Assembly: GCA_018713375.1 (NCBI GenBank)
Contig: DVOV01000210.1
Span: 1-34,255 of the forward strand
DNA from: Candidatus Scatomorpha stercorigallinarum
GTDB lineage: Bacteria; Bacillota_A; Clostridia; Oscillospirales; Oscillospiraceae
DNA length: 34,255 nucleotides
Direction: 5' to 3'
Below the pieces are notes generated by a model. That model had not been told where the DNA came from and made no database searches. It was given only the letters and a program-made list of their open reading frames with translations. Made by a program: the position numbers and the translations under genes. Shown here piece by piece: positions 5,127 to 20,262 of the stretch. Each line of letters starts with the position of its first letter. Within the stretch, counting starts at the first letter, position 1.

Positions 5127-5150
5127 AATCGTGACAAACGAACACGATGT

Positions 5151-5259
5151 CTTCAGGGCAGGGTGAAATTCCCGATCGGCGGTAAAGTCCGCGAGCCGCG
5201 CAGCGGCATGAATCGGTGCAAGTCCGATACCGACAGTTACAGTCTGGATGAGAGAAGAT
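5151..5259 (+). ncRNA. FMN riboswitch (RFN element)
   Basis: The stretch carries the conserved FMN aptamer features in order: the closing strand CTTCAGGGCAGGGTGAAATT, CCGATCGGCGGTAAAGTCC, the variable GAGCC..CGGC arm, GAATCGGTGCAAGTCCGATACCGACAG, and the final AGTCTGGATGAGAGAAG that pairs back to the start. In known cases FMN binding lowers expression of riboflavin synthesis or uptake genes. Here the downstream gene is the riboflavin transporter ribU, and a Rho-independent terminator follows within 30 nt, so control is most likely by transcription termination. Confidence 0.95.
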
Positions 5260-5285
5260 GCGTATTTTGCACCTTTGCAATAATT

Positions 5286-5342: not shown

Positions 5343-6032
5343 ATGGATGTCAGAAAACCCGCCCCCACCCTGAGGAAAATCGACACTAAGAAGCTCGCCG
5401 TCCTCGCCATGCTCACCGCCCTGGCCTATGTGGTCATGTGGATGTCGAAGATACTCCCGAGCGTCAACGACTTCCTCGACTTTGACTTCAAGCACGTCGT
5501 TATCTGCATCGGCGGCTTCATCTACGGCCCCGTCTCCGCCGGGCTCATCACCGTCGTGGTCTGCTTCATCGAGATGATCACGATCAGCGGCACCGGCCCC
5601 TGGGGCTGCCTTATGAACATCATAGGCACGGCCAGCTTCTGCTGCACGGCCTGCTATGTTTATAAGAAAAACCACACCATGAAGGGCGCCGTCATCGGCC
5701 TCTCCCTCGGCGTGATAGTCATGACCGCCCTGATGCTGCTCTGGAACTACCTTGTCACCCCGATTTACCAGGGCATGCCCCGCTCCGCCATCGCCGACAT
5801 GCTCGTGCCCGTGTTCCTGCCCTTCAACCTCGTCAAGGGCGGCATGAACATGGCCGCCACGCTGCTGCTCTACAAGCCCATCGTCGGCGCGCTGCGCCAC
5901 GCGAAGCTGGTCCCGGAGTCGGAGGGCGCGGCCCCCGTCGGCGGGAAGAAAAAGGTGGGCTTCACGATAGTCGCCCTCTTCCTGCTCGCCACCTTCATCT
6001 TCCTCGCCCTCGTCCTGGCCGGTGTCATCTGA
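5343..6032 (+). CDS. ribU: riboflavin ECF transporter S component
   Basis: A 229-residue membrane protein with about six hydrophobic segments; it binds riboflavin as the substrate-specific subunit of an energy-coupling-factor transporter. The family pattern is visible: LAVLAMLTALAYVVMW in TM1, FLDFDFKHVVICIGGFIYGP, and a late FNLVKGGMNMAATLLLYKP. Translation starts at ATG 5343, after the riboswitch terminator; the open frame extends upstream through the aptamer but is not coding there. The C-terminus carries a Lys-rich linker and one further hydrophobic helix (VGFTIVALFLLATFIFLAL), longer than a minimal RibU. The EcfA/EcfT energising genes are not in the window, so a shared module elsewhere is expected. 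Confidence 0.93.
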   Translation: MDVRKPAPTLRKIDTKKLAVLAMLTALAYVVMWMSKILPSVNDFLDFDFKHVVICIGGFIYGPVSAGLITVVVCFIEMITISGTGPWGCLMNIIGTASFCCTACYVYKKNHTMKGAVIGLSLGVIVMTALMLLWNYLVTPIYQGMPRSAIADMLVPVFLPFNLVKGGMNMAATLLLYKPIVGALRHAKLVPESEGAAPVGGKKKVGFTIVALFLLATFIFLALVLAGVI

Positions 6033-6058
6033 GCAGGGGCAGGCCCCTGCCGGCCCTA

Positions 6059-6203
6059 TTCTGAGAGATTTCTTTTTGTCTTGTCAAAAAGAAACCCCTC
6101 AGACTCCAAAGAGAAAACCGCTTTGGTGCGGGTCGGTAGGTAAATGCTGTCTTTTATGCCTTTCCGCTTGCTTCAAGTGGTCATCCCGGTGTCGGATGGC
6201 TTT
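6059..6203 (+). repeat. dispersed intergenic repeat, copy A (conserved segments)
   Basis: Segment 1 (6059-6144, 86 bp) matches 19758-19843 at 82 of 86 positions by my alignment. Segment 2 (6177-6203, 27 bp) is identical to 19880-19906. Segment 1 contains a long stem: CTGAGAGATTTCTTTTTG (6061-6078), loop TCTTGT, then CAAAAAGAAACCCCTCAG (6085-6102), with two mismatches. A second small stem, CCAAAG/CTTTGG (6106-6126), follows. Both copies sit in convergent gaps in the same orientation. It may be a MITE/REP-like element or a structured RNA or terminator; no mobility gene is nearby. Confidence 0.85.
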
Positions 6204-6333
6204 ACTCATCGCCGACCGTGCGTTGCTTCGCTTCGCTCTCGGCACTACGTGGTGGTTAAGGGCAGCGTAATGTGCCACATAATCGGCAAGCGCGCCGAAG
6301 GCCGCGTTTCCGCAACCGCAAACCGTCCCGACG

Positions 6334-6780
6334 CCGGCCCGCGGAGCGGGCCGGTAAGTCTGTAAGGGGAAAAAGCCGGCACATGTCATGCGTCCCCGCA
6401 CCAATGCGGCGAGTCCGCAGGACGAGCCGCCCCAGGGGGCAAGGGGGCGGAGCCCCCAATAAACGCCGCGACAAGCGCGCCGTTCCGCCCAACGCGAACT
6501 ACGTCCGTGGGCGGGCTCCGCCCATCTCGCTCGCCCGCGCCCCAGCGCGGGCGGCGTATTTAAGTCCCATTTTGCTTAAGCAAAATGGGACACATTAGAA
6601 AAGCCCGTGCGGTCAGTGGCACCCAACGCCGCAAGCATAGGAATGGCCGCCCGCATAGGGCGGCCAAAATCCCCGGCGGGCTTTGCCTGCCGGGGATACC
6701 TTATCTTGCGCCCTGTGGGCGCAACCGCGCCGCCGTGCGGCGCGAGGGGGAGCCTACGAGGGGGACGAAGTCCCCCTCGT
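6334..6780. repeat. array of ten GC-rich stem-loops (copy A)
   Basis: Stems, outer limits: 6334-6354 (9 bp, loop GGA), 6443-6457 (6 bp, GGA), 6508-6524 (7 bp, GCT), 6532-6553 (9 bp, CCCA), 6564-6591 (28-bp perfect palindrome), 6644-6666 (9 bp, GCATA), 6669-6697 (13 bp with one G-T, loop TTT), 6706-6724 (8 bp, TGT), 6726-6744 (8 bp, CGT), 6756-6780 (11 bp, GAA). Six of the ten have GC-rich stems closed by a three-base loop. The stem sequences differ from each other, so the structure rather than the sequence repeats. Confidence 0.85.
6564..6591. repeat. perfect 28-bp palindrome
   Basis: GTCCCATTTTGCTT is followed with no spacer by its exact reverse complement AAGCAAAATGGGAC. It is the only AT-rich and spacer-free member of the hairpin array. 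It could be an operator, a recombination site or a cruciform-prone sequence; I cannot decide which. Confidence 0.95.
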
Positions 6781-6782
6781 AC

Positions 6783-7874
6783 TCACGTTTCGTCGCCAAA
6801 ATATATCTTCACGTCCCTGGCCGTCTGGATCAGCGGGTGATCCGTGGGCAGGAACTTGGTGCGGCTGGCGGAGTCCTCCAGCGGGACGGAGACGATCTCG
6901 CCCTGCTGGATGCCCACCATCATGCCGTACTTGTGCTCCATGATGAGGTGCGCGGCGGCGGTGCCGAACTGCGTGGCGAGCACGCGGTCGTACGGGCACG
7001 GGGGGCCGCCCCTCTGGTAGTGGCCGGGGATGGTGACGCGCGTCTCCTGCCCGGTGAGGGCCTCCAGCTCGCTGGCGATGCGGTAGGAGATGGTGGAGTG
7101 GCGCGACTGCTCCTTCACGCGGCGGCGCTCCTCCTCGCTGAGCACGGCGTCCGTGCTGGAGACGGCGCCCTCCGCCACGGCGATGATGGAAAAGTGCTTG
7201 CCGCTGCGGTAGCGCTGCTCGACGGCGGCGGCCACGGCCTCGATCTTATAGGGTATCTCCGGGATGAGGATGATGTCCGCGCCGGAGGCGATGCCGGCGT
7301 TCAGCGTCAGCCAGCCGGCGTCGCGGCCCATCAGCTCCACCAGGAAAACGCGCCCGTGGGAGCTGGCGGTGGAGTGTATGTAGTCGATGACGTTGGTGCC
7401 GATGTCCACGGCGCTCTGGAAGCCGAAGGTGGTGTCCGTGCCCCAGATGTCGTTGTCGATGGTCTTGGGCAGGGTGATGATGTTCATGCCCGCGTCCATC
7501 AGCAGCTTGGCGCTCTTCTGCGTGCCGTTGCCGCCCATGACGATCAGGCAGTCCAGGTTGAGGCGGTTATAGGTGTCCAGCATGGCGGGCATCAGGTCGT
7601 TGCCCTGGTCGTCCACGATGGCCTTGCCGGGGATGTACTTCTGGCGCGAGGTGCCGAGTATGGTGCCGCCCTCCGTCAGGATGCCGGAGAAGTCCTTCGA
7701 CTCCATGAACTTATAGTCGCCCTCGATGAGCCCGCGGTAGCCGTCGTACATGCCGAAGATCTCGACATTGTCAACGTACTGCAGCAGCGCCTTGCCGATG
7801 CCGCGGATTGCGGCGTTCAGGCCCTGGCAGTCGCCGCCGGAGGTGACTATGCCTACCTTTGTGTTCCTTTTCAT
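6783..7874 (-). CDS. pfkA: 6-phosphofructokinase, group III-like
   Basis: A 363-residue phosphofructokinase that phosphorylates fructose 6-phosphate in glycolysis. The phosphoryl-donor motif SGGDCQGLNAAIRG (12-25), the catalytic loop PKTIDND (136-142) and the fructose-phosphate motif MGRDAGW (182-188) are present. Donor specificity is mixed in appearance. GGNGT (114-118) has the small Gly typical of ATP users, but PKT has the Lys common to PPi-type and group III enzymes, and the usual Asp of GGDGS is Asn. ATP use is more likely than PPi but not settled. AGGAGG sits 8-9 bp before the ATG. The gene has its own promoter. Confidence 0.9.
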   Translation of the reverse strand: MKRNTKVGIVTSGGDCQGLNAAIRGIGKALLQYVDNVEIFGMYDGYRGLIEGDYKFMESKDFSGILTEGGTILGTSRQKYIPGKAIVDDQGNDLMPAMLDTYNRLNLDCLIVMGGNGTQKSAKLLMDAGMNIITLPKTIDNDIWGTDTTFGFQSAVDIGTNVIDYIHSTASSHGRVFLVELMGRDAGWLTLNAGIASGADIILIPEIPYKIEAVAAAVEQRYRSGKHFSIIAVAEGAVSSTDAVLSEEERRRVKEQSRHSTISYRIASELEALTGQETRVTIPGHYQRGGPPCPYDRVLATQFGTAAAHLIMEHKYGMMVGIQQGEIVSVPLEDSASRTKFLPTDHPLIQTARDVKIYFGDET

Positions 7875-19757: not shown

Positions 19758-19906
19758 TTCTGAGAGGTTTCTTTTTGTCTTGTCAAAAAGAAACCCCTCA
19801 GACTCCAAAGAGAAAACCGCTTTGGTGCGTGTCGATACGTAAAATCTGCCCGTTAGTTCGGGTGGTGACTGGTTTTTGGGTGGTCATCCCGGTGTCGGAT
19901 GGCTTT
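19758..19906 (+). repeat. dispersed intergenic repeat, copy B (conserved segments)
   Basis: Segments 19758-19843 and 19880-19906 match copy A at 82 of 86 and 27 of 27 positions. The main stem here is CTGAGAGGTTTCTTTTTG (19760-19777) with CAAAAAGAAACCCCTCAG (19784-19801), with a single A-C mismatch; copy A has two mismatches. The linker between segments differs in sequence and length (36 versus 32 bp), while the region after segment 2 again contains GGCTTCGCTTCGCTC-like text. Confidence 0.85.
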
Positions 19907-20071
19907 GCACAACGCCGGCCGCGGTTGGCTTCGCTTCGCTCGCGCCGCTACCGGGATTGTAATCGTTAGTGCCGCGAGCGAAAGCGAAGCAGTGCACGGA
20001 CGGCGATGCTGAAAACTCATTCACCCTTCGGGATGACCACTTTTGACAACTGAAAACCTGTAAAAACACGC

Positions 20072-20105
20072 AAAAAACGCTCCGGTTTCCACCAGAGCGT
20101 TTTTC
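20072..20105. terminator. bidirectional terminator in the copy B gap
   Basis: A6 precedes the stem CGCTC/GAGCG and T5 follows (ACGCTC at 20077-20082, GAGCGTTTTT from 20095). Either strand gives a stem plus U-tract, which suits a convergent gap between the GNAT and peptidase genes. Confidence 0.8.
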
Positions 20106-20113
20106 TTTGGGGC

Positions 20114-20262
20114 GCCACTCCCGTTTCTTTGGGCAAGACCAAAGAAATGGGGTGGCACGTGGGTCTTGCAGGGGCCTTCGTCCCTGCATCCCGCCGCCGC
20201 TTAGCGGCGGCAACTGCCTCCAGGCGCAGCCTGGGCCATTGGCCGCGGCAGTCAACTGCCGC
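20114..20262. repeat. stem-loop array (copy B)
   Basis: The stems are: 20114-20156 (about 18 bp with one wobble and one bulge, centred on TTTCTTTGG/CCAAAGAAA), 20167-20188 (7 bp TGCAGGG/CCCTGCA), 20193-20211 (8 bp, loop TTA), 20220-20234 (6 bp CCAGGC/GCCTGG, loop GCA), and 20245-20262 (8 bp GCGGCAGT/ACTGCCGC, loop CA). The last one contains the peptidase stop codon. As in copy A, several stems have three-base loops and unrelated stem sequences. Confidence 0.8.

Follow-up and report, generated by a model that had tools for sequence, protein, structure and literature searches.

The hairpin array at positions 6334–6781 of the window (the whole stretch of 34 255 nucleotides analysed, from Candidatus Scatomorpha stercorigallinarum) contains in its right part a recurring element with a fixed order of hairpins, anchored to stop codons, which goes beyond the array described in the earlier note. 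The existence of this apparently undescribed dispersed structured element in Oscillospirales gut bacteria is well supported. No description of it was found in the open-licence papers searched, as judged from titles and the starts of abstracts. With moderate confidence, the array is interpreted as one copy of the element, which lies behind stop codons and would form part of the mRNA 3′ end, tuning ribosome release and shielding the message.

Hairpin array of the window

The features of the array and of its surroundings are listed in Table 1. The array occupies a gap of about 750 bases between the end of an ECF transporter-like gene (6032, plus strand) and that of the 6-phosphofructokinase (PFK) gene (6783, minus strand), for which the nearest relative found was the protein of Candidatus Scatomorpha intestinavium (97% amino-acid identity).

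Table 1. Features of the hairpin array and neighbouring sequence
Feature	Positions	Strand	Structure	Remarks
FMN riboswitch	5145–5263			Rfam; directly upstream of the ECF-transporter S component-like gene
ECF-transporter S component-like gene	5343–6032	+		Convergent with PFK; below curated cut-offs
One half of a large dispersed palindrome distinct from the array	6059–6246			Adjoins the array
Outermost hairpin	6334–6354		9 bp, loop GGA	Outside the stretch matched in G008
hpA	6443–6457		6 bp, loop GGA	
hpB	6508–6524		7 bp, loop GCT	Nine-base insertion and longer hairpin here in the G008 copy
hpC	6532–6553		9 bp, four-base loop CCCA	G008 copy has a longer loop
hpD	6564–6591		Perfect 14 bp palindrome without spacer; drawn as 12 bp with loop TTAA	G008 rny copy has the same outer 12 pairs but a different loop
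hpE	6644–6666		9 bp, five-base loop GCATA	Restricted to the long form; unchanged in the G008 rny copy
Core recurring element, hp1–hp4	6669–6781	−, message strand of the PFK gene		Recurrence and covariation
hp1	6669–6697	−	13 pairs including one G·T, loop TTT	Loop AAA in two other copies
hp1–hp2 linker	6698–6705		ACCTTATC	Largely kept within the genus, more variable outside
hp2	6706–6724	−	8 bp, loop TGT	
hp3	6726–6744	−	8 bp, loop CGT	Covarying stem; loop largely retained
Linker	6745–6750		AGGGGG	Conserved
hp4	6755–6781	−	12 bp, loop GAA	Stop-proximal hairpin
6-Phosphofructokinase (PFK) gene	6783–7874	−		NCBIfam; message would carry the element

Counting stems of 6 bp or longer, ten hairpins were listed in 6334–6781, in agreement with the earlier note, which had also placed the end of the array within 2 bp of the PFK stop; the final hairpin ends one base short of the PFK reading frame (stop codon 6783–6785, minus strand). 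Six perfect non-overlapping stems of at least 6 bp with three-base loops were counted, compared with a mean of 0.32 and a maximum of 3 in 1000 dinucleotide shuffles, and four of at least 8 bp, compared with a mean of 0.024 and a maximum of 2. This is the control that had been proposed for the claim that the density exceeds that of random sequence; the claim holds, and a chance origin of the array was ruled out. RNA folding of 6560–6783 gave z = −8.4 for the minus strand and −9.6 for the plus strand.

The prominence given to three-base loops stood only in part. Seven of the ten hairpins have them (one with a G·T pair in its stem), but each loop size from 3 to 8 exceeded the shuffles in intergenic DNA sampled from three relatives and Oscillibacter ruminantium, so that the three-base loop alone is not a special feature and was rejected as the key one. 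A tandem direct repeat, already discounted from the sequence, was rejected as well, the direct repeats present being two-copy only (12 to 25 bases). What is unusual about the array is its dense packing, together with its recurrence with covarying stems.

Searches with Rfam 15 at the gathering score returned only the FMN riboswitch in the window and nothing in 17 loci with copies, and a known Rfam RNA was rejected as the identity of the array; 19 low-scoring matches at 6030–6800 were all under their gathering scores.

The large palindromic repeat that adjoins the array has a second window copy at 19758–19951, in a repeat region given as 19758–20160, and near its start reads TTTCTTTTTG-TCTTGT-CAAAAAGAAA. 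Matches to it were obtained in eight of 11 relatives, with 50 in the closest one (G001). Short hairpins with GCA loops were seen by eye to be scattered around it in G001 intergenic regions (L091–L110), with stems that vary but stay matched (CACAC/GTGTG, CAGGC/GCCTG, CAAGC/GCTTG).

Recurrence of the element

A covariance model (R1) was built from 11 copies; it covers window positions 6669–6750 and is tuned to one genus. Applied to 21 relatives, it gave 23 strong hits (at least 80 bits) in ten of the 21 genomes, with one to four strong copies in each of these carriers. At 1e-8, matches were obtained in 11 of 13 genomes of one genus. Searches beyond the 21 relatives used stricter filters, and their counts outside the genus are not copy numbers: a match was found at 1e-6 in 15 of 400 family genomes (seven of the same genus and eight outside it) and at 1e-8 in five of 394 order genomes, four of them new. 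The whole architecture was recognized by eye in seven of the eight family genomes outside the genus, and all seven loci taken from the order-level matches have it. In other genera the hp1 and hp3b stems are quite different yet still paired, and the motifs GAGGGGG-TATC and TATC-[CT]-AGGGGG are kept with small changes; hp3b is absent from the window, the G008 rny copy and L125.

Single genomes and contigs gave further copies. The named isolate Butyricicoccus sp. Marseille-Q5471 carries one next to a gene with pyruvate formate-lyase domains (L054; one of 80 loci scanned). Within 118 kb of G322 four sites were located (L384:11583, 14404 and 15713; L385:6665), one of which is partial and one of which was recognized by its linker. 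Two of the G322 sites lie behind neighbouring genes, one of these with AIR synthase domains; the protein beside one G322 copy gave no Pfam match at 1e-8. A pattern scan of 200 kb of G368 revealed no copy. Among the listed matches to a 15-base pattern in viral contigs, R1 detected no element in 80 loci, and a longer exact gapped pattern led to one contig. This putatively viral IMG/VR contig of 9.5 kb carries a copy behind a reading frame (L390:4833–4872).

Tandem copies exist, including those in G001, L152 and L147, and copies were found by eye at the same genes across species (tuf, ACT-PFL and the SNF symporter).

The array is absent from the pfk gap of 12 relatives (the gaps of L003 and L004 being only 135 and 325 bases), and in the closest relative (L001) this gap holds one terminator-like hairpin. 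The comparison of the same gap in relatives suggested by the earlier note thus found no array there; the conserved copy adjoins a different gene. A search with the full array in the 21 relatives gave one long match, located behind the RNase Y gene on contig 126 of G008 (87% over query bases 102–448), and counterparts of hpA–hpE were found among these relatives in this copy only. In a comparison that ignores bases inserted in the G008 copy, the 84 pairs of the nine hairpins showed no one-sided change, so that the stems are conserved, and the refuting outcome named in the earlier note, no stem conserved in close relatives, did not occur. Two-sided differences affect three pairs; two of these are alignment gaps in hp1, the stem of which differs as a block. 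The unpaired positions differ at 24 of 171, seven as gaps. G008 holds two RNase Y (rny) matches, L349 and L362 (100 and 93% to the query), and contig 126 (C126), which carries the long array, may therefore belong to another species in the bin. The rny gaps of 13 other loci contained no full element by eye; that of G003 gave a weak R1 match (41.7 bits).

Covariation and conservation

Stem sequences change while pairing is kept. In the alignment of 11 copies 96.9% of the cells are paired, with 40 double changes, and none of 500 shuffles was as high; in that of 41 rows (every distinct row being kept, as in the hp1 G·T count below) the values are 96.2% and 264, again with none of 500 shuffles as high and with at most 69 double changes in slid-partner controls. 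Alignments made with R1 lean towards the R1 structure.

Pairwise differences were counted among 23 copies, two of the 25 distinct rows (L148 and L142, the latter on the reverse strand) being left out. Two-sided and one-sided differences numbered 1632 and 346 when one G·T pair was omitted and 1667 and 458 when it was included, counts that ignore the shared descent of the copies. The sole yardstick was RNase P, found in seven of 11 genomes, with 73 two-sided and 143 one-sided differences in the seven relatives; its structure was predicted with RNAalifold after 128 columns around an unalignable insertion had been removed, and its much higher conservation compared with the element makes it a weak control. 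The copies nearest to each other show one-sided changes first, and the ratio is therefore not proof of one-step change.

Conservation was tabulated from 39 rows, the last two of the 41 (reverse-strand matches) being omitted. The AGGGGG linker has a mean column identity of 96% and the hp3 loop an identity of 88%, compared with 74% for the stem columns. The hp1–hp2 linker (74% mean column identity) is no more conserved than the stems across genera.

In 14 of 25 rows one hp1 pair reads G·T on the plus strand of the window. It corresponds to A·C on the message strand, which ill suits selection on that RNA and counts against the mRNA-fold reading. When this pair is excluded, message-strand G·U and A·C pairs number 16 and 8, respectively.

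Position relative to stop codons

Of 39 copies, 34 have a reading frame of 50 codons or more that runs towards hp4 and stops between −7 and +7 nt from it; the script detected an hp4 in 37 copies, and all 34 are among these. Eight shifted places used as a control gave 1 to 6 of 33 to 37, and in the mirror test a frame ends at the hp1 end in two of 39 (L171 and L176). The host gene is accordingly faced by hp4. In L151 and L164 the script assigned no hp4, and in L368 it gave no stop, but a stop at hp4 is visible by eye in each of the three. The frame that it gave for L177 is probably spurious, and by eye another frame ends at hp4, that of a gene which we take to be enolase. The 39 copies do not include L155 (cut by the contig end), L165 (no hp4 seen), L172 (hp1–hp3 only), L054, L390 and the partial copy in L384. 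No gene adjoins the inner tandem copies of L152 and L147, and in L170 and L171 a TAG lies inside hp4.

The window host is PFK (NCBIfam). The other hosts were assigned by Pfam as EF-Tu, DUF4830, ACT domain, SNF symporter, PNP_UDP_1, ABC ATPase, RNase Y, HpaB, ATP-synt_F, Cu-oxidase_4, KhpA/B KH, tRNA-synt_2d, ribosomal L1, DBI_PRT, ThiI, aminotransferase V, IF-2, CtsR, AIR synthase and pyruvate formate-lyase-like; gene names such as infB and thiI are our reading of the Pfam matches.

Individual gaps were inspected by eye. In the tuf gaps of G004, G009, G002 and G011 the stop codon is followed by the element and then by a terminator-like hairpin with a short T run, an arrangement which suggests that the element is transcribed in the 3′ end of the message. 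In the tuf gap of G003 the element is on the other gene of the gap, and none was seen within the 260 bases read of the G010 and G360 tuf gaps. The convergent tuf/DUF4830 gap (L337–L347) has the element on one or other side, with apparent remnants of the opposite copy in several species. The distance from the ACT gene to the next gene is 191 bases with the element in G008 and 13 bases without it in G002. Several copies lie between genes of the same direction.

Possible function and alternative explanations

From its placement and covariation, the element probably functions as a stop-proximal structure of the mRNA 3′ end. Transcribed as part of that 3′ end, hp4 would stand at the site of the terminating ribosome and the hairpins behind it would form a barrier. 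The element could then adjust the release of ribosomes and protect the message upstream of it against 3′ to 5′ decay, its tandem hairpins slowing 3′ exonucleases as is reported for REPs. In passages of a report on REPs (PMC12306157), those within 15 nt of a stop codon are stated to stall ribosomes and REPs to be able to block exoribonucleases. The arms may be kept matched partly by template switching during replication, one arm being rewritten from the other, in addition to selection for the fold. If this account is true, it would add, for a large group of gut bacteria, a structured element that resembles a regulator of how translation ends and messages decay.

The principal alternative, which is possible if somewhat unlikely, is a selfish dispersed element without host function, spread by an enzyme and surviving where it is least harmful, the folds of which serve its own copying. 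Proximity to stop codons could then be a mere tolerance filter. The dispersed positions, the gaps without the element in relatives, the tandem copies and the copy on the IMG/VR contig all fit such an origin, as do shortened or interrupted copies in the tuf gaps of G005, G006 and G008 and in the ACT-PFL gap of G006 and the weak match (41.7 bits) in the G003 rny gap. Against it, each of the ten carrier genomes has only one to four strong copies, the same host genes recur across species by eye (tuf, ACT-PFL and the SNF symporter), a Y1 match is missing in ten of 11 draft genomes and the placement is tighter than avoidance of coding DNA alone needs. As to the traits of MITEs, no clear target-site duplication was seen by eye between filled and empty tuf and ACT-PFL gaps.

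It appears improbable that the array consists of clustered transcription terminators serving one of the two convergent genes or both. GC-rich hairpins at gene ends are expected of terminators, the window genes do converge and a terminator-like pattern occurs at 6669–6697 (plus strand); the 2.1 kb scored contain three sites of this kind, and shuffles contain 1.6 on average. However, hp1 is followed by TTTT in three of 37 copies on the message strand, and hp4 in six of the 26 readable on the other strand; moreover, four tuf gaps have a separate terminator-like hairpin beyond the element, and several copies separate same-direction genes.

It is very improbable that the matched arms are a mutational product only, arising by template switching in palindromes with the structure unselected: two-sided changes dominate, the hp1 loop is TTT or AAA, the tandem hp3b hairpins of G001 share their arms and have reverse-complementary loops and the mechanism has been described (PMC8794818; PMC8604942), but the AGGGGG linker, the order of the hairpins, the hp3 loop and the anchoring to stop codons are also conserved, for which arm copying alone is insufficient. 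The hp3b observation was made by eye on two tandem copies; identical arms with reverse-complementary loops are the footprint expected of template switching according to parts of the same two papers (PMC8604942; PMC8794818).

Beyond the preferred stop-proximal function, a broader proposal is that the element represents a new order-wide class of stop-anchored structured RNA, with stems rewritten by template switching, that may switch between two folds; this we regard as speculative and rather doubtful. It draws on the lengths of the G-runs in the linker and in hp4, which in a table typed by hand from 34 of 40 copies were short in both in eight, long in both in 24 and mixed in two (L151, L164, L169, L175, L176 and L177 were left out; with L175 and L177 added the counts become 9, 25 and 2). 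With one row per host site they are 9, 15 and 2 (Fisher p = 3e-5, descent ignored). Given this match in length, an arm of hp4 might form its stem with either the other hp4 arm or the linker, a choice that would be coupled to the stop-codon ribosome. The many copies, with differing stems and one architecture, form a natural data set on the evolution of perfectly paired stems and bear on the open question of slow compensation through G–U pairs as opposed to one-step template switching.

Comparison with known systems

Like REP/BIME sequences, the element is extragenic, palindromic, dispersed, close behind stop codons and able to supply a stop codon, and it resembles the translation-linked REP subset (at most 15 nt from the upstream stop) in that hp4 is within 7 nt in 34 of 39 copies. 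Unlike them, it comprises three to five hairpins in a set order, joined by linkers. The tag of the GTAG REPs occurs near the element ends in none of 37 copies (the hp4 end being readable in 26 and the hp1 end in all), and the CGTC/GACG letters of the CGTC repeats occur near an element end in seven of 37, at no fixed place. In the portions consulted of the respective papers, the GTAG and CGTC families are reported in phyla that do not include Firmicutes (PMC3733652), and REPs under a wider definition are listed in three Bacillota (PMC12306157). A Y1 transposase (RAYT) was matched in one of 11 draft genomes, at 23.2 bits with a cut-off of 23. The element thus probably acts like the REPs of E. 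coli, yet it is not classified among REPs, since GTAG is missing, TTTT is rare, there is no Rfam family and Y1 was matched in a single genome of the 11.

With intrinsic terminators the element shares GC-rich hairpins at gene 3′ ends; unlike them, most copies lack the U-tract (TTTT after hp1 in three of 37). Palindromic candidate structured RNAs of the human microbiome, as presented in part of PMC8040213, are a further parallel, the element also being palindromic. In that part 20 of 250 such candidates are not predicted terminators, and the four examples named there, mostly or wholly from Bacteroidetes, were compared with the element by their descriptions, so that overlap is possible. In its covarying stems and its conserved loop and linker, the element resembles the structured RNA families of Rfam 15.
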